Assembly (NCBI GenBank): GCA_023666835.1
Contig: JAMPBJ010000001.1
Coordinates: forward strand, 90,210-134,903
Direction: 5' to 3'
Source: Bacteroides sp.
GTDB taxonomy: Bacteria > Bacteroidota > Bacteroidia > Bacteroidales > Muribaculaceae
Length of the DNA: 44,694 nt
Shown here: one piece after another, positions 38,312-44,694 of the stretch
Layout of the letters: every line of letters begins with the position of its first letter
Numbering within the stretch: position 1 is the stretch's first letter
Translations under genes and position numbers: made by a program
Notes under the pieces: generated by a model
Seen by the model: the letters and a program-made list of their open reading frames with translations, nothing else
Told to the model about the DNA's origin: nothing
Databases searched by the model: none

Positions 38312-41300
38312 TAATATTCCTGCCAGGGGGTGATGGCGATATCTTCGAGGGGTGTGGACAAGAAGGCTTTGACATATGCTCCGGCAAGGCGTGCATTGGT
38401 CAGCAACGGGATGTTGTGGTCCACGCTCCAGCGGCGTATACGGTAGCCGTTGGTCAGCTCACGCTTGGTGTGATTCTTCGGAATGTTGATGACAAGATCC
38501 ACTTTGTGGTCGGTGATGAGGTCGAGCACGTTGCAGTCGCCCTGTTCATCGGGCCAGTGGGCCACGGTGGCGTCAATATCGTTGTCGTTGAGGAATCGCG
38601 CTGTTCCTTCTGTGGCATAGATCTTGTAGCCGGCTTCGTGGAGTAGTCGGCAAGCGTCGAGCATGTCGACCTTGCCTCTGACATCGCCCGAGCTTACCAG
38701 CACCGCACCTTGCGGTATGTGGTGACCTACGGATATCATGGCGTTGAGCAGCGCTTCGTCGAAGTCGCGGCCAAGACAGCCGACTTCACCTGTCGACGAC
38801 ATGTCGACGCCAAGTACCGGGTCGGCCTTGTGCAGACGGGCAAAGGAGAATTGCGAAGCCTTCACGCCGACGTAGTCGATATCGAAAGTCGATGTGTCGA
38901 CCGGTTCGATCTGTTCACCAAGCATGATGCGTGTGGCCGTTTCGATGAAATTCTTCTTGAGCACCTTGCTGACGAAGGGGAACGAACGCGATGCGCGGAG
39001 GTTGCATTCGATCACCTTGACATCGTTGTCCTTGGCCAGATACTGGATATTGAACGGGCCGGAGATGTTGAGCTCTTTGGCTATGCGGGCGCTGATGCGC
39101 TTGATGCGTCGGGCGGTGGCCATATAGATCTTTTGTGCGGGGAACACCAGAGTGGCATCGCCGGAGTGAACGCCGGCAAATTCGATGTGCTCGGAGATGG
39201 CATATTCCACGATTTTACCGTTGCGAGCCACGGCGTCGAATTCGATCTCCTTGGTGTTTTGCATGAATTCAGACACCACAACGGGGTATTCTTTCGACAC
39301 GTTGGCAGCCTGGGCCAGGAAGCGGTGCATCTGCTCGAAGTCGTAGCACACGTTCATTGCGGCTCCGGAGAGTACGTAGCTCGGACGGATGAGAACAGGG
39401 AAACCGACTTCGCGAATGAAGCTTTCGATTTCGTCCTCGGTGGTAAGCTCTCTCCATCGCGGCTGATCGATGCCGAGCTGGTCGAGCATGGCCGAGAATT
39501 TGTGGCGGTTTTCTGCGCGGTCGATCGATACGGGCGATGTGCCAAGCACGGGCACATGGCGGCGGTAGAGCTTCATGGCCAGATTGTTGGGGATCTGCCC
39601 GCCCACGCTGACGATCACTCCGCGGGGTGCTTCGAGATCGATGATGTCGAGCACGCGTTCAAACGACAGTTCATCGAAATAGAGTCGGTCGCACATGTCG
39701 TAGTCGGTCGACACCGTTTCGGGGTTGTAGTTGATCATGATGGAGCGGTAGCCAAGTTTGCGGCATGTGGCTGCGGCATTGACCGAGCACCAGTCGAATT
39801 CGACGGAAGAACCGATGCGGTAGGCACCCGATCCGAGCACTACGATGTTGTTGCCTTGGTTCATACCGTAGGGGATGGAGTGCTCATCGGCGCCGTAGGT
39901 GACGTAAAGATAGTTGGTCAGTTCGGGATATTCGGAGGCCACAGTGTTGATGCGGCGCACTTTGGGCGTGATGTCGAGACGCTTGCGCAGGTCGCGGACG
40001 CGGAGCACGTCCTGCTCCATGTTGCCCGACGGGTTCTCAACAAGTCGCGCTATCTGGAAGTCGGAGAAGCCGAGGCGTTTTGCTTCGGCGAGAGTGGCTG
40101 CATCGAGGCTTTCGATGGTCTCGAATTCGGCAAGCCGAGCGGCATATTTCACGATATTGTCGAGGCGCTCGATAAACCAGCGGTCGATTTTGGTCAGATC
40201 CACTATGCGGTCGATCGAGTAGCCTTCTTCAAGTGCCTTGGCTATGGCAAAGATGCGAAGGTCGGTTGGATTGGACAGCGCGTCGTCGAGATTGTCGAAG
40301 GTGATGTCGTTGTTGCCGACAAAGCCGTGCATTCCCTGGCCGATCATGCGGAGGCCTTTTTGTATGATTTCTTCAAATGATTTGCCGATCGACATGATTT
40401 CGCCCACCGATTTCATCGACGAGCCGATTTCGCGGTCGACGCCGGCAAATTTTGTCAGGTCCCATCGCGGTATCTTTACGATCATGTAGTCGACCGACGG
40501 CGCCACGTAGGCGGAGTTGGGCGTGTTCATCTCGCCGATTTGGTCGAGGGTATAGCCCAGAGCCAGCTTGGCAGCCACGAAGGCGAGGGGATAGCCCGAG
40601 GCTTTGGAGGCAAGAGCCGACGAGCGACTCAGGCGAGCGTTGATCTCGATGATGCGGTAGTCGTTGGTTTCAGCATTGAAAGCATATTGGATGTTGCACT
40701 CGCCCACGATGCCGATGTGGCGCACCACTTTGCGGGCAATGTCCTCGAGCATCGATATCTGTTCCTGAGAGAGCGAAACGATTGGAGCCACAACGATCGA
40801 TTCGCCGGTGTGGATACCCAGTGGGTCGAAGTTTTCCATCGGCACCACGGTGAAGCAGTGGTCGTTGGCATCGCGGATCACTTCAAATTCAATTTCTTTC
40901 CATCCTTTGAGCGACTCTTCGATGAGGATCTGCTGCGAATAGCTCAGGGCGCTTTCGCAGTGGCGGGTGAACTCCTCGTCGTTGTTGCAAATGCCCGACC
41001 CGAGACCGCCCAGGGCGTAGGCTGAGCGCACCATCACCGGGTAGCCGATACGGTGTGCAACTTCTATGGCATCTTCGAGCGTTTCGACAGCTTGTGACAC
41101 CGGGGTCTTGGCTTCGATTTCGTTGAGCTTCTTTACAAAAAGATCCCGGTCTTCGGTGATCATGATAGCTTCAACCGATGTTCCGAGAACTTTGACGCCG
41201 TAGCGGTCGAGGGTGCCGTTGAGATACAATTCTGTGCCGCAGTTGAGGGCGGTCTGGCCTCCGAAAGCGAGGAGTATGCCGTCGGGTCGCTCCTTTTTGA

Positions 41301-41517
41301 TCACTTCTTCGACGAAGTGGGAAGTGATGGGGAGAAAATAAACCTTGTCGGCCACACCTTCCGAAGTCTGGATAGTTGCGATGTTGGGGTTGATTAACAC
41401 TGTAGAGATGCCCTCTTCGCGCATTGCTTTGAGAGCCTGGGAACCCGAATAGTCAAACTCACCGGCCTGACCGATTTTCAGAGCTCCGGAGCCAAGCAGC
41501 AGAACCTTTTTGATCAT
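38311..41517 (-). CDS. carB: Carbamoyl-phosphate synthase large subunit
   Basis: Makes carbamoyl phosphate from bicarbonate, ATP and glutamine-derived ammonia for pyrimidines and arginine. A 1068-residue protein with the full order: N-terminal carboxyphosphate half (KKVLLLGSGALKIGQAGEFD at the start, ATP-grasp about 125-340), oligomerisation part, carbamoyl-phosphate half (IVVLGSGAYRIGSSVEFDWC, second ATP-grasp) and the C-terminal MGS-like regulatory domain (from about 930). The ATG at 41517 gives MIKKVLLLG; an earlier one at 41547 would nearly reach the promoter. No carA lies beside it in the window. Its stop codon TAG includes the first base of the adjacent MITE. Confidence 0.97.
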   Translation of the reverse strand: MIKKVLLLGSGALKIGQAGEFDYSGSQALKAMREEGISTVLINPNIATIQTSEGVADKVYFLPITSHFVEEVIKKERPDGILLAFGGQTALNCGTELYLNGTLDRYGVKVLGTSVEAIMITEDRDLFVKKLNEIEAKTPVSQAVETLEDAIEVAHRIGYPVMVRSAYALGGLGSGICNNDEEFTRHCESALSYSQQILIEESLKGWKEIEFEVIRDANDHCFTVVPMENFDPLGIHTGESIVVAPIVSLSQEQISMLEDIARKVVRHIGIVGECNIQYAFNAETNDYRIIEINARLSRSSALASKASGYPLAFVAAKLALGYTLDQIGEMNTPNSAYVAPSVDYMIVKIPRWDLTKFAGVDREIGSSMKSVGEIMSIGKSFEEIIQKGLRMIGQGMHGFVGNNDITFDNLDDALSNPTDLRIFAIAKALEEGYSIDRIVDLTKIDRWFIERLDNIVKYAARLAEFETIESLDAATLAEAKRLGFSDFQIARLVENPSGNMEQDVLRVRDLRKRLDITPKVRRINTVASEYPELTNYLYVTYGADEHSIPYGMNQGNNIVVLGSGAYRIGSSVEFDWCSVNAAATCRKLGYRSIMINYNPETVSTDYDMCDRLYFDELSFERVLDIIDLEAPRGVIVSVGGQIPNNLAMKLYRRHVPVLGTSPVSIDRAENRHKFSAMLDQLGIDQPRWRELTTEDEIESFIREVGFPVLIRPSYVLSGAAMNVCYDFEQMHRFLAQAANVSKEYPVVVSEFMQNTKEIEFDAVARNGKIVEYAISEHIEFAGVHSGDATLVFPAQKIYMATARRIKRISARIAKELNISGPFNIQYLAKDNDVKVIECNLRASRSFPFVSKVLKKNFIETATRIMLGEQIEPVDTSTFDIDYVGVKASQFSFARLHKADPVLGVDMSSTGEVGCLGRDFDEALLNAMISVGHHIPQGAVLVSSGDVRGKVDMLDACRLLHEAGYKIYATEGTARFLNDNDIDATVAHWPDEQGDCNVLDLITDHKVDLVINIPKNHTKRELTNGYRIRRWSVDHNIPLLTNARLAGAYVKAFLSTPLEDIAITPWQEY

Positions 41518-41558
41518 TGAAGTATATGTGTTGAGTGGGAATGTCAAGCATATCGATA

Positions 41559-41566
41559 CAAAGGTA
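41559..41566 (-). promoter_or_regulatory. -7 element TACCTTTG for carB
   Basis: A minus-strand TACCTTTG that gives a leader of about 37 nt to the ATG at 41517. The -33 region is AT-rich without a clean TTG. Confidence 0.55.
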
Positions 41567-41632
41567 CTAATAATTATTAGATTATCTTACACTATTTTGA
41601 GGGGAATAGTACGGAAGGGTGCAAAAACAAAA

Positions 41633-41661
41633 CGAGGGGTCGTCGTCTCGACGTCTCCTCG
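41633..41661 (-). terminator. Hairpin with a T-rich tail pointing toward carB
   Basis: CGAGGGG (41633-41639) and CGTCG (41641-41645) pair with CGACG (41649-41653) and TCTCCTCG (41654-41661), with one mismatch and one G-U pair, over a 3-nt loop. On the minus strand TTTTGTTTTTGC follows. It lies upstream of the carB -7 box with no minus-strand gene directly before it, so it may stop readthrough from the small-protein operon or act as an attenuator of a longer carB transcript. Confidence 0.5.
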
Positions 41662-41796
41662 CTTAGATAATAAACCAATCATTATCACATTTCTTGCAAT
41701 GGAAAAAGTAATTTTGCTTTTCTGATAGTGAAACGTGGAGATGGAGTGAAAGGTTCGCGGATGGGTGGGGTTTTAACATTGTTTAACACCGGAGCC

Positions 41797-41889
41797 AATT
41801 AGGAATTAGGTGGGCAGAGATAAATCGGCGTCCTGGGCGGACGCTTGACGGGGAGGCGGGAGAATTTTTTGATTTATAATTCTTGTAAG
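41797..41889 (+). repeat. ~93-bp noncoding repeat, copy A
   Basis: It shares with copy B (44417-44508), in the same order and orientation, AATTAGGAATTAGGTGG, TAAATCGGCGTCCTGG, CGGACGCTTG, CGGGA, GATTTATAA and GTAAG. It contains hairpin GCGTCC-TGGGC-GGACGC at 41828-41844. The 500-bp gap between carB and the next gene holds this copy, the carB promoter and hairpin, and the promoter at 42039. Confidence 0.75.
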
Positions 41890-42038
41890 GACGGATAGAG
41901 TGGGCTTAGGTCAACGCGCGTCGGGGAGATGATGCCAATCCAACATGTCGCGGGGAAGATTATGTGTGGTGTATATTATTTTGACGGATGCGTACGGGGC
42001 TTTTACTTTCTTTTGGGGTTTGGTTGTGTGGCAGGTTT

Positions 42039-42046
42039 TATCTTTG
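42039..42046 (+). promoter_or_regulatory. -7 element TATCTTTG for the secreted cysteine-motif protein
   Basis: TATCTTTG, 36 bases before the ATG at 42083. TTTG boxes lie upstream at 16 and 23 bp, neither the usual 19-20. Confidence 0.5.
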
Positions 42047-42082
42047 AGCACATTTAGTCATTCATTTATAAATACAATCATT

Positions 42083-42358
42083 ATGAGCAAAATTAAAACT
42101 ATTTTGACTGCGTGCGCCCTTCTGCTTGTTTGCGGTGGAACTGTGTATGCTTTGAACGAAGATCCTCAGGCAGCTACTGAGCAAGTGAAAATTAAACGCA
42201 AATGTAACACCTGCAATGGTACCGGCCGTGTGCAACAGAAAACTACACACTATTCATGCGGTGGCGCAGGATGCGCAGCCTGCGACTACAACGGATATGT
42301 GATGGAATACGTCACTTGCGGATCCTGCGATGGTGCCGGCTGGATAACGGTAAGATAA
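42083..42358 (+). CDS. Small secreted protein with DnaJ-type CxxCxGxG motifs
   Basis: A 91-residue protein. Residues 1-23 are a signal peptide (ILTACALLLVCGGTVYA). The mature part has seven Cys: CNTCNGTG (41-48), CGGAGCAACDYNG (59-71) and CGSCDGAG (79-86). CxxCxGxG is the zinc-binding module of DnaJ, here with no J domain and in an exported protein. It may bind zinc or form disulphides outside the cytoplasm; the role is unknown. The ATG at 42083 is chosen because the signal peptide begins there; the frame extends to 41945 with no sense. It ends at a bidirectional terminator. Confidence 0.75.
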   Translation: MSKIKTILTACALLLVCGGTVYALNEDPQAATEQVKIKRKCNTCNGTGRVQQKTTHYSCGGAGCAACDYNGYVMEYVTCGSCDGAGWITVR

Positions 42359-42380
42359 TAAATAGGATATATACTTTAAT

Positions 42381-42415
42381 AAAAAAATCTCAGGAGCGAT
42401 CCTGAGATTTTTTTT
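42381..42415. terminator. Bidirectional intrinsic terminator
   Basis: AAAAAAATCTCAGGA (42381-42395) pairs with TCCTGAGATTTTTTT over a GCGA loop. It has T runs on both strands and serves the secreted-protein gene and the convergent small-protein operon. Confidence 0.88.
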
Positions 42416-42435
42416 GTGTGTAGATGTTGTAGGGA

Positions 42436-42750
42436 TTATTTTCTTTCAACAGTGCGGGCGAGCCAGCAGATGTTCATGTAGAGGTGGCCGTTTTCATACC
42501 AGTAAGAGTTGTCAGAACGAGTAATGCCGGTGATTTGATCCTTGACGGTGAAGGTGCCATCGGGGTTTTCCTGTATTACCTGCAGGTTGTGTTTGAGGTT
42601 GCCGGCGCGGTCATATACGTAAATAGTTTTTCCATCACCGGCGACTGAAGCATAGAGAGTATCGCGGCTGTAGTAGTTTCCGGTCGGAACGGCAAGCATG
42701 CTTATGGTGGCTACAAGGCTAAAGAAGATGGCCATTAAACATTTTTTCAT
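42436..42750 (-). CDS. Small exported protein, unknown function
   Basis: A 104-residue protein with a signal peptide (about 1-20, CLMAIFFSLVATISMLA). The mature part is a short beta-rich sequence (YYSRDTLYASVAGDGKTIYV, then NPDGTFTVKDQITG) ending in CWLARTVERK. I do not recognise it. It is the last of four small minus-strand genes for exported proteins (gaps of 21 nt, 11-nt overlap, 42 nt) that seem to form an operon. Confidence 0.6.
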   Translation of the reverse strand: MKKCLMAIFFSLVATISMLAVPTGNYYSRDTLYASVAGDGKTIYVYDRAGNLKHNLQVIQENPDGTFTVKDQITGITRSDNSYWYENGHLYMNICWLARTVERK

Positions 42751-42771
42751 AATTGTGGAGTGTTATTTGTT

Positions 42772-43185
42772 TTAGGTTGTTTTTAATAGTCCTGTTTTCG
42801 AAGCTTTTTGATAGATTCTTGATGCGACACTGTCGTAGAACAATTGCAGACGAATGTCGTTGTTGGTGTTGATGTAAAAGAGGCCGGCGCTGTCTAACTT
42901 CACGCCGTTGCGAGCTAATTCGCGATATTCAGGATCGACAGAGAGATGTTGCTTGACTGAGGCCTTAGTTAATCCACTGTCGATAACACTTAACGCTTTG
43001 TCGTTGATTACTTCGTACATCGAATCCAACGAACGTATTGCAGCACGGCATTGTGCAGCATTCTCTATTTTTCCGTAAGTGTAGAGGTTCTTTGGGGATG
43101 CATCATTGCGGCATCCTGTTGCCAAAAGACAAAGGGATGTTATTAGGACAGTGATCGATAGGGTTGGGTGACGATTAAAGAGCAT
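42772..43185 (-). CDS. Small lipoprotein, unknown function
   Basis: A 137-residue protein with a lipobox (LLATGC, Cys25) after a hydrophobic signal. The mature part is helical and polar (AAQCRAAIRSLDSMYEVIND, then QLFYDSVASRIYQKASKTGL). I do not recognise it. Its ATG lies within the last 11 bases of the 57-residue gene upstream, so the two are probably translated in a coupled way. Confidence 0.6.
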   Translation of the reverse strand: MLFNRHPTLSITVLITSLCLLATGCRNDASPKNLYTYGKIENAAQCRAAIRSLDSMYEVINDKALSVIDSGLTKASVKQHLSVDPEYRELARNGVKLDSAGLFYINTNNDIRLQLFYDSVASRIYQKASKTGLLKTT

Positions 43186-43348
43186 CCATTAACGCACCTA
43201 TGGTATAACCTGCCCGATGGTAGTCGTCATTTGACATAGATGATGAACTGCCGCATGACGAGATGATTACCATGCCGGTGACTGCAATGAACATGGCTAC
43301 AGCAAAATTGAATAAAGCTGCGCGGGAAGTGAGAACTGATTTTTTCAT
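43175..43348 (-). CDS. 57-residue lipoprotein gene, overlapping the next gene
   Basis: A short frame starting ATGAAAAAATCAG. The protein has a basic start (MKKSVLTSR), a hydrophobic stretch (AALFNFAVAMFIAVTGMVII) and a lipobox ISSC (Cys32), leaving only 25 residues: GSSSSMSNDDYHRAGYTIG and then ALMDAL. Its stop is inside the start of the next gene (overlap of 11 bases). It begins 42 nt after the gene upstream. That signal peptide and overlap support it as real. Function unknown; a small anchored peptide of this kind could be a regulator or an immunity-like protein, which is speculation. Confidence 0.6.
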   Translation of the reverse strand: MKKSVLTSRAALFNFAVAMFIAVTGMVIISSCGSSSSMSNDDYHRAGYTIGALMDAL

Positions 43349-43363
43349 TGATGGATTGGTTTA

Positions 43364-43383
43364 TAGTTAATAGTTAATAGTTA
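43364..43383. repeat. Heptamer tandem repeat TAGTTAA
   Basis: TAGTTAA is repeated 2.9 times in the 42-bp gap between two small genes. Such a repeat can change length by slippage and would alter their spacing. Confidence 0.6.
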
Positions 43384-43390
43384 TTGAACA

Positions 43391-43771
43391 TTACTGACAC
43401 TTTCTGCCCGTGATGGACGTAACATCAAATGAGTTGTATTGATAGACATTGTTGCCTACCTTTATTTCTGCCGGAACGGCGACGGTGATATCTGAATAGC
43501 CGTTGGGGGCGGCAAGTGCGCGTCCGGTGTATGTTCGGTTTTCCTTGAAGTTGTTTCGAAGTTGATATTCCACGTTGACGGAAACTTCGATATTGACAGA
43601 TTCATTTGAATCGTTGCTTACTTTAACTGTGACTGCTCCGGCTCCATCATATGATGAACTGATATATACGACCGAATTGTCGCCTCCGGCTATGTTGCAT
43701 ATCGGTGCGGAAGCATTGCCGAAAAATGCCAATGAGAGGACGAGAGAAAAGAACAGAATTACTTTTTTCAT
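43391..43771 (-). CDS. Small secreted beta-rich protein, unknown function
   Basis: A 126-residue protein with a signal peptide ending at NASA (about residue 22). The mature part looks like a single Ig-like beta sandwich: VVYISSSYDGAGAVTVKVSN, then NIEVSVNVEYQL, then SDITVAVPAEIKVGNN. It has two Cys (CNIAGG and the near-terminal KCQ) that could bridge the ends. It is probably first in the small-protein operon. No full promoter was found; GACCTTTG at 43793-43800 on the minus strand is one mismatch from the -7 consensus. Confidence 0.6.
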   Translation of the reverse strand: MKKVILFFSLVLSLAFFGNASAPICNIAGGDNSVVYISSSYDGAGAVTVKVSNDSNESVNIEVSVNVEYQLRNNFKENRTYTGRALAAPNGYSDITVAVPAEIKVGNNVYQYNSFDVTSITGRKCQ

Positions 43772-43894
43772 ATTGTGAGATTTTGTTGACTACAAAGGTC
43801 GTGAGATCTGTGTGTGGATACGGCAAGTGTAGCGTATGCAAAATCGACCGAAGCGTATAAAATGTTTACGCCCATAAGGTGCTATGTCGTCGGT

Positions 43895-44110
43895 TTATTC
43901 TTTTTCCTCGAGCAATTGTTTGGAATATTCGGAGAAGAAATCGCGATTCAATGCTTTGGATATTTTGTAAAGCATGTCGGTGTTGATCGATGGTTGATTG
44001 AAGATATAGTACATATTGGGACGCTGACAAAAGATTTTTTTAGCCAGCCATGCAGGAGTGCGTTCCTGCTTAATGAGTTCCTGGTGAATTAGTTGTCCAA
44101 TATGTATCAT
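43895..44110 (-). CDS. Short XRE-type HTH regulator
   Basis: A 71-residue protein. MIHIGQLIHQELIKQERTPA leads into WLAKKIFCQRPNMYYIFNQP and then SINTDMLYKISKALNRDFF, the layout of the short Bacteroidales helix-turn-helix proteins of the XRE/Cro kind. It should bind DNA as a dimer. The ATG at 44110 gives the family start; the frame is open to 44188. It lies upstream of the small-protein operon on the same strand (123 bp away), and may control it. It has a strong promoter 255 bases upstream. Confidence 0.75.
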   Translation of the reverse strand: MIHIGQLIHQELIKQERTPAWLAKKIFCQRPNMYYIFNQPSINTDMLYKISKALNRDFFSEYSKQLLEEKE

Positions 44111-44364
44111 AAACGACGAGACTGGATTGTTGTCACTTACAGCAACTGCGGCACCGCCAAGCGCCCTGATACAGATAAGTACAATCAATCCAGCCCCTGA
44201 TAGAGCTGAATCTTGATGAACTTATTCACTGTATCACATTGAAATAATTGGCGGTTTTCAGTTGCGATGAATAAGATCTACAAAGATCAAATGTTATGTT
44301 TTTTCGTTAGAGTGTTCTTTTTTTGTTCGAATTGTGTTTAATGGGTTGTGGTTTGAACTATTGG

Positions 44365-44396
44365 CAAAAGTAGTAAATGTGTGTTTTATTTGCAAA
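44365..44396 (-). promoter_or_regulatory. Promoter TTTG-N20-TACTTTTG for the XRE gene
   Basis: Minus-strand TTTG (44393-44396) and TACTTTTG (44365-44372). It implies an untranslated leader of about 245 nt before the ATG at 44110, or about 170 if translation starts at 44188. Confidence 0.65.
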
Positions 44397-44416
44397 TGAG
44401 GGAAGGGGGGGATTGG

Positions 44417-44508
44417 AATTAGGAATTAGGTGGTGGGGTAAATCGGCGTCCTGGTCGGACGCTTGTAGGTGGGTCGGGAAGGATTATACGATTTATAAAT
44501 CGTGTAAG
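44417..44508 (+). repeat. ~93-bp noncoding repeat, copy B
   Basis: The same blocks as copy A in the same order and orientation. Hairpin GCGTCC-TGGTC-GGACGC (44446-44462) keeps the stem of copy A and changes only the loop. CGATTTATAAATCG (about 44489-44502) is a perfect palindrome in this copy. The gap from the XRE promoter to groL (about 44397-44676) holds this repeat and the groL terminator. Confidence 0.75.
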
Positions 44509-44587
44509 TTGTATATGGTCGTATAAGATGTGTCGGTTGTGTGGGGTGTGGGGACTGCACTCGGGGTGGGACTTGAGAGGGTAGACC

Positions 44588-44620
44588 AAAAATCGCCTCC
44601 CGGGTGGGGAGGCGATTTTT
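44588..44620. terminator. Intrinsic terminator after groL
   Basis: AAAAATCGCCTCCC (44588-44601) pairs with GGGAGGCGATTTTT (44607-44620) over a 5-nt loop, with A and T runs on both sides. It lies 57 bases beyond the groL stop on the minus strand. Confidence 0.9.
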
Positions 44621-44676
44621 AGGTGTCTTCGGCGCGATGCGTCGGAGTGTAGGGAAATAGTGGGGGATGATGCTGT

Positions 44677-44694
44677 TTACATCATGCCGCCCAT
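44677..44694 (-). CDS. groL: Probable C-terminus of chaperonin GroEL (partial)
   Basis: Only the last five codons and the stop are inside the window: Met-Gly-Gly-Met-Met-stop on the minus strand. A Gly-Gly-Met tail is the hallmark of GroEL, and the strong terminator just past it fits a highly expressed gene. The rest lies beyond the right edge, so the call rests on five residues. Confidence 0.6.
   Translation of the reverse strand: MGGMM

Follow-up and report, generated by a model that had tools for sequence, protein, structure and literature searches.

Near its end, a 44,694-nt stretch of Bacteroides sp. DNA (contig JAMPBJ010000001.1; the whole stretch analysed is called the window) carries six small genes between two direct repeats, and the locus poses the question of what makes these genes a unit and how they are controlled. 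The initial annotation had proposed an XRE regulator and five small exported proteins in a module bordered by the repeats. The six open reading frames (ORFs) were confirmed: one on the plus strand encodes an exported-type protein, and four small exported proteins and a helix-turn-helix (HTH)-like protein are encoded on the minus strand. The label HTH-like, which rests on resemblance, is retained for the first gene of the minus-strand operon; the regulator assignment stands as far as that resemblance goes, but the match to Pfam HTH_26 (PF13443; E 0.14, 12.9 bits) falls under the cut-off of 22. Our preferred answer is that the unit is probably a small exported-protein operon under cis control by a bistable leader RNA. 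The sequence-based parts of this answer are conservation, covariation, promoter position and gene context.

A putative structured leader RNA precedes the HTH-like gene

The elements concerned, in window coordinates, are as follows.

44365..44396, minus strand: match to a Bacteroidota-type promoter, with TTTG at 44396-44393, a 20-nt spacer and TACTTTTG at 44372-44365
44109..44290, minus strand: leader RNA, a full-length match to the covariance model R1 (122.5 bits; the window is among the source sequences of R1)
44187..44212, minus strand: P4 hairpin, part of the leader, state A
44150..44165, minus strand: H5 hairpin, state B, competing with the 3' arm of P2
44118..44197, minus strand: helix T, state B, with arms at about 44181-44197 and 44118-44133; it stops 7 nt short of the start codon
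43895..44110, minus strand: HTH-like (XRE-like) gene, the operon head, 71 aa from the ATG at 44110

A 97-aa version of the HTH-like gene with a TTG start runs back into the leader RNA. Of 54 close loci, 40 have the core CCGCCAA...TTGGCGG in the 175 nt that precede the HTH start. When 35 such leaders were aligned with MAFFT, RNAalifold predicted nested helices with 34 pairs, 17 of which carry compensatory changes, and the window leader folds at -55.8 kcal/mol (z -4.07). R1, the covariance model of the leader, yielded alignment A9 of 81 aligned matches (79 distinct), which was fitted to the state-A model described below; the MAFFT alignment of 35 leaders is free of bias towards that model. In A9, 95.7% of cells are paired and 33 of the 34 pairs are changed on both sides with pairing kept. 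Cells changed on both sides number 631 against 166.9 in shuffles, and covariation is 0.677, compared with 0.208 in shuffles and at most 0.083 when the arms are slid. From these sequence comparisons, the leader as a cis-regulatory structured RNA is well supported. No Rfam 15 family matched the leader in window positions 41000-44694 at E<=5, or in six loci at E<=1, and Rfam 15 at the gathering cut-off over 20 loci returned tRNA and 5S only.

The nested palindromic arms would also suit a DNA element, such as a palindrome for recombination or protein binding. However, G-U pairs are frequent among the accepted leader pairs and antisense matches score lower (158 versus 29 bits in L120, and 154.5 versus 37.6 in L312), which points to RNA rather than DNA. 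A promoter element also lies upstream at a preferred distance, and we consider a DNA element exceedingly improbable. TAnnTTTG, the -7 consensus quoted in PMC7366714 (this and the other papers cited are drawn on in part), precedes 59 of 78 leaders, whereas mononucleotide shuffles gave 7.9 on average and the reverse strand 12. Of its 65 occurrences, 33 start 60-79 nt ahead of the R1 model start, and the full pattern TTTG-N18..22-TAnnTTTG precedes 20 leaders, versus 0 when reversed.

Covariation supports two mutually exclusive folds

The 3' arm of P4 (c') can pair either with the 5' arm of P4 or with a segment before the start codon (c''). When arms were swapped among 78 sequences, pairing improved in 0.8% of swaps for P1 and P2, 7.7% for P3, 11.8% for P4 and 13.3% for helix T, compared with 43-51% for four pairs of control arms. 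Hairpin H5 is the alternative for the 3' arm of P2 (95.8% paired, with 59 double changes versus 19.4 in shuffles), and helix T is 72.4% paired, against 41-52% with its arms slid. Taken alone, the 3' half of the window leader folds into T and H5 (-38.6, z -3.65). A UUUU run lies within the last 12 nt in 55 of the 78 leaders. Covariation supports bistability of the leader, with two exclusive folds, one of which is predicted to end in a terminator-like manner just before the start codon.

In the proposed mechanism, transcription would start near the promoter at 44396-44365, and the leader segments would follow in the order a, b, a', c, c', a'', b', c'', ahead of the HTH start codon. For state A, the pairs would be b with b' (P1 and P2), a' with a'' (P3) and c with c' (P4), so that c'' and the start region stay free; in state B, b' would fold on itself (H5) and c' would pair with c'' (helix T). 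Helix T ends in a U-run in most homologues, and in the window it ends 7 nt before the AUG. State B would halt transcription of the HTH-like and exported-protein genes or, in the window with its weak U-run, would perhaps act on translation. State A would then be ON and state B OFF, with an effector selecting between them, and the HTH-like and exported-protein genes would share one transcript. The HTH-like protein may add feedback on its own operon. The leader is read here as a putative attenuator, possibly a riboswitch; judged by its sequence, it has the conserved, covarying structure in the 5' untranslated region (UTR) by which riboswitches are recognised.

The terminator-like 3' end, with its frequent UUUU, would also fit a free small RNA (a stable terminated product) or an RNA bound by a protein or antiterminator rather than a ligand-sensing switch. 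Bacteroides has families of RbpB-bound small RNAs (PMC11697453) and UpxY antitermination (PMC12632263). Against this, the place of the leader before exported-protein genes and its two exclusive covarying folds fit cis control, and the FopS consensus (PMC11697453), a single-stranded 5' stretch plus a terminator, is unlike the leader. We regard a free or protein-bound RNA as unlikely. A protein effector would be compatible with all of these results.

By eye, a different leader lies upstream of the HTH gene at L141, L145, L153, L160, L161, L172, L180 and L313, in which the upstream part differs while the ending, GCGTGG...CC(C)ACGC/CCGCGC plus a U-run, is kept. It is as if these HTH operons had one terminator platform bearing different sensor domains.

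HTH-headed operons recur with differing exported cargo

The remaining genes and the hairpin between E104 and CYS are as follows.

43391..43771, minus strand: E126, 126 aa, signal-like N-terminus, predicted beta-strand protein, Cys 25 and Cys 125 invariant
43175..43348, minus strand: E57, 57 aa, transmembrane- or lipoprotein-like, C-terminal GxxxG, G47 and G51 invariant
42772..43185, minus strand: E137, 137 aa, lipoprotein-like
42436..42750, minus strand: E104, 104 aa, signal-like N-terminus, predicted all-beta small protein
42384..42418, no strand: terminator-like hairpin, bidirectional, read in the sequence and not listed by the scan
42083..42358, plus strand: CYS, 91 aa from an inner ATG, signal-like N-terminus, DnaJ-like Cys motifs of the CxxCxGxG type

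CYS is convergent with the minus-strand operon, and its relatives adjoin HTH genes in other genomes. Its match to the DnaJ central zinc-finger PF00684 (E 3.6e-4, 21.2 bits) is under the cut-off of 32.7 and is a resemblance only. Predicted structures of E126 and E104 (predicted local distance difference test scores of 86 and 84) had no PDB match at E<=0.001, and no Pfam family passed its cut-off for the small exported protein families among those scanned. The predicted site of action of the cargo proteins is the envelope or the cell exterior. The label VanZ-like for a neighbouring membrane protein family was dropped, as it had no Pfam match at E<=0.5.

Relatives of the 71-aa HTH-like protein were found in 48 of 118 genomes, its own included. 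Eight of them, at 66-71% identity, adjoin other exported-protein genes, which are small in seven and larger in G038. The gene order is HTH, E104-like, E126, E57 and E137 in G029; HTH, a 131-aa protein with multiple transmembrane segments (family A5), a 78-aa transmembrane protein, E104 and E126 in G046; and HTH, CYS, an A5 protein, an 84-aa transmembrane protein, a 113-aa protein and an E104-like protein in G053. An HTH alignment searched against one genome per species gave 70 loci, all from metagenome-assembled genomes, with titles naming Bacteroidales or related taxa and many ruminant gut samples. With the window and one more these make 72 loci, which contain near-duplicates (for example L144/L154, L136/L142 and L148/L155/L159).

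In 38 of 52 close relatives the HTH gene is followed directly by a same-strand gene whose product has a signal-like N-terminus, compared with 67 of 297 control genes taken from the same loci (Fisher p 3.4e-12, the loci being partly non-independent). Distant relatives are followed by such a gene in 5 of 20 cases. The cargo extends from the tiny families found in the window up to larger proteins that are lipoprotein-like or barrel-like. An annotated Bacteroides finegoldii record has a similar layout, in which the HTH relative, a 78-aa hypothetical protein, is followed in turn by a further hypothetical protein, an outer membrane beta-barrel protein and a member of the lipocalin family. The pairing of a regulator-like gene with exported proteins, as first annotated, is thus a real recurrent unit whose cargo differs among relatives. 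Strong matches of alignments A2 and A3 occurred in 7 and 4 of 297 genomes and were all HTH-linked, a linkage that is built in because both alignments were made from HTH-linked loci; no strong HTH-unlinked copy appeared in these searches. None of four inspected among seven weaker A2 matches adjoins an HTH gene of this kind, and the one weaker A3 match (G038) fell outside the inspected set.

Tiny exported proteins, shuffled gene content and an adjacent HTH-like gene could also mark a toxin-immunity, toxin-antitoxin or anti-phage island. In PADLOC, the sole match among the six proteins was a weak one, of the HTH-like protein to PDC-M69A (E 0.021), which falls short of a defence assignment, and the other five proteins had none at E<=0.1. 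The HTH-like protein had no match in the phage collection, three plasmid records at 44-49% identity and one viral contig at 44%, and CYS had no match in viral contigs. The leader has further copies in front of genes for CsgG, SprB, BACON, leucine-rich repeat (LRR) and type IX secretion system (T9SS)-tail proteins. No positive evidence was found for the toxin-immunity function first suggested, and an island of this kind is very improbable. Phage or plasmid carriage of the unit was rejected, the HTH, CYS and leader searches having given few or no matches; the leader of L278 had no plasmid or phage match by blastn.

Two further observations were made at the HTH loci. At L228:4410-4775, in another genome, a small exported protein that is weakly E126-like lies amid genes reading like phage genes. 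Genes for groL and groES lie near HTH in 8 of the 72 loci (L161, L174, L188, L191, L193, L194, L195 and L198), six of which have distant HTH relatives (44-47% identity).

The leader recurs in Bacteroidota, often before genes for exported or membrane proteins

At E<=0.1, R1 had matches in 70 of the 118 relatives, as many as 23 of them in one genome (G086). In a sample of 345 genomes from across Bacteroidota, 27 had a match at E<=0.001, the window's own included. The filters applied in both surveys lose weak matches. Several of the 23 matches in G086 are near contig ends. Phocaeicola massiliensis has a copy scoring 154.5 bits. The window's genome has two R1 places, the second of which (L302:962-1140) lies 31 nt before a small-membrane-protein-like gene; the ORFs there read like three small membrane proteins, and the two that were scanned had no Pfam match at E<=0.001.

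For 40 R1 loci hand-picked from the listed matches, mostly at places not already known as HTH loci, the first downstream gene was classed as signal or transmembrane in 28, HTH in 2 and other in 7, with none within 300 nt in 3. The classing follows a simple hydrophobicity rule, which yields false negatives such as L279 and L296, counted as other although they look exported. Control genes in these loci were signal or transmembrane in 41 of 109. The HTH share is no estimate, because the loci were hand-picked mostly outside known HTH loci. Among 20 scanned proteins encoded downstream of leaders, six had a Pfam family over the cut-off, namely CsgG (two), SprB repeats, BACON, Laminin_G_3 with a T9SS sorting tail and BspA-type LRR, and 11 had no Pfam match at E<=0.001; PEGA was just under the cut-off. 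The phylum search gave nine new loci; in four of them, the ORF that follows at a distance of 223-276 nt resembles by eye the start of a SusC-type receptor.

It is conceivable, and we suggest it tentatively, that the leader represents an undescribed Bacteroidota-wide riboswitch class that would turn genes for surface and secreted proteins on or off in response to a signal related to the envelope or the host. The genes served might then extend, with similar reservation, from tiny exported cassettes behind an HTH-like gene to SusC-like receptors, CsgG, SprB and T9SS cargo. Bacteroidota are a major gut phylum, and surface proteins are their contact with host and diet; a shared leader RNA before surface genes, if true, would give a direct handle on their switching. 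The leader may be an orphan riboswitch, and the HTH-headed operons delimit a set of small exported protein families with no Pfam family over the cut-off among those scanned.

Observations that weigh against the proposed cis control by a bistable leader

Several results count against the preferred reading of a bistable leader controlling the operon. Helix T, at 72.4% paired, is less clean than P1-P4. A run of four U is absent from the last 12 nt in 23 of the 78 leaders, and the window's own U-run is short. The upstream alternative helix P0 (a:a') is only weakly supported, with 32% of swaps better against 43-51% in controls, and swaps gave no signal for P3 (42% better) in the earlier and narrower set of 35 leaders. 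These 35 leaders (A8) were selected for a visible core, the fit of A9 to the state-A model favours the state-A counts, and A9 includes one antisense row as well as some rows from a single genome that is represented twice. No core lies in the 175 nt before HTH in 14 of the 54 close loci, three of which (L170, L171 and L174) have weaker R1 matches at E<1e-5, and R1 finds no leader at the Bacteroides finegoldii locus L313 or at L231. The false negatives of the hydrophobicity rule belong here as well.

The flanking repeats are dispersed in the genome

The two repeats that bracket the genes are as follows.

41797..41889, plus strand: direct repeat copy 1, a dispersed extragenic hairpin repeat, judged incidental
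44417..44508, plus strand: direct repeat copy 2, a member of the same dispersed repeat

Both are present as annotated, are 81% identical and share the hairpin GGCGTCC..GGACGC. Same-orientation repeats flanking a gene set that differs between species would suit a recombination cassette, in which the 2.6-kb unit is lost or exchanged as a block. Within the window's own genome, however, the hairpin core occurs six times exactly, eight times with one mismatch, once with two and twice with three, against four matches at <=3 mismatches for a reversed control pattern. Of the 15 copies at 0-2 mismatches, 14 fall outside called ORFs of >=100 codons. Besides the pair in the window, three pairs are spaced 81-112 nt, leaving no room for a gene, and another pair, spaced 457 nt, encloses a 108-codon ORF. 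The initial annotation had named repeats spread through the genome without cargo as a finding that would speak against it, and this is in large part what was seen. A flank scan of 68 of the 72 HTH loci (the flanks of four were too short) found same-strand direct repeats (E<=1e-3), 24-269 nt long, at seven besides the window. With the hairpin dispersed and direct repeats rare at other loci, the repeats were rejected as cassette borders; loss or exchange through them was not borne out, and a cassette is highly unlikely. In our reading, the flanking repeat belongs to an extragenic palindrome family that is dispersed in the genome; two of its copies happen to bracket these genes and are not module borders.

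As a short palindrome with many intergenic copies, if in modest number (15 at 0-2 mismatches), the repeat resembles repetitive extragenic palindromic (REP) elements, also short dispersed palindromes (PMC3733652). It differs from them in that no REP-associated tyrosine transposase (RAYT, a Y1 transposase) was found in the window's genome, which is 79% complete, and in that no unpaired GTAG/CGTC end tag was found in it, CGTC sitting within the stem. A RAYT-borne REP element was rejected on the first of these grounds. CGTC-type REPs are said to have no dedicated RAYT (PMC3733652). Other short motifs, in varying mixtures, accompany the hairpin sites, and the intergenic regions around 41797-41889 and in L009, L014 and L018 look like mosaics of AATTAGG repeats, two kinds of hairpin and TATATGATTTATA blocks.

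Neighbouring genes at the end of the window

The groL gene first annotated beside the unit was not confirmed; the window shows only five C-terminal codons and a terminator-like hairpin, and the name is a guess from these codons because the window stops at 44694 at a 100-N scaffold gap (L036:4105-4204), within which the gene, if present, would lie. Beyond the gap, the first large ORF resembles by eye a major facilitator superfamily transporter. The carB gene, also named by eye, was matched in 30 of 34 same-genus genomes. Genes upstream of its closest copy differ by eye among the 18 same-genus genomes fetched, so that the unit was not seen at carB elsewhere, and the carB interval is uninformative for presence or absence because different genes lie there and three stretches (G033, G029 and G025) are short.

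Comparison with known systems

No description of the leader was found in the parts drawn on of PMC3733652, PMC8040213, PMC10994844, PMC11697453, PMC7366714, PMC12632263 and PMC2864571, in PMC11109978 by word search, or in the open literature, a search to which subscription papers, preprints and supplements were external. Bacteroidales-1, Bacteroides-1, Bacteroid-trp and Flavo-1 are likewise structured RNAs listed for Bacteroidetes (PMC2864571); the motifs of that paper with Rfam numbers are in the library scanned, where the leader had no match, and Bacteroides-2 and the GUCCY-hairpin, which have no Rfam number, are outside the comparison. FopS/GibS of Bacteroides thetaiotaomicron (PMC11697453) are, like the leader, a multicopy Bacteroides RNA family with a terminator, but they are trans-acting, with a single-stranded seed and one hairpin, whereas the leader is long, folded and placed before genes. 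In the UpxY-antiterminated capsule loci (PMC12632263), as may hold for the unit, surface functions are controlled by a protein whose gene opens the locus; the first gene of the unit is short and HTH-like.

The leader resembles riboswitches and other 5' leader transcription attenuators in the 5' UTR position, the covarying sensor-like domain, the exclusive terminator-like helix and the several copies per genome before related genes. It differs from them in having no Rfam 15 match in the stretches scanned, and in that the genes it would serve are for exported and surface proteins and do not make up a single metabolic pathway.

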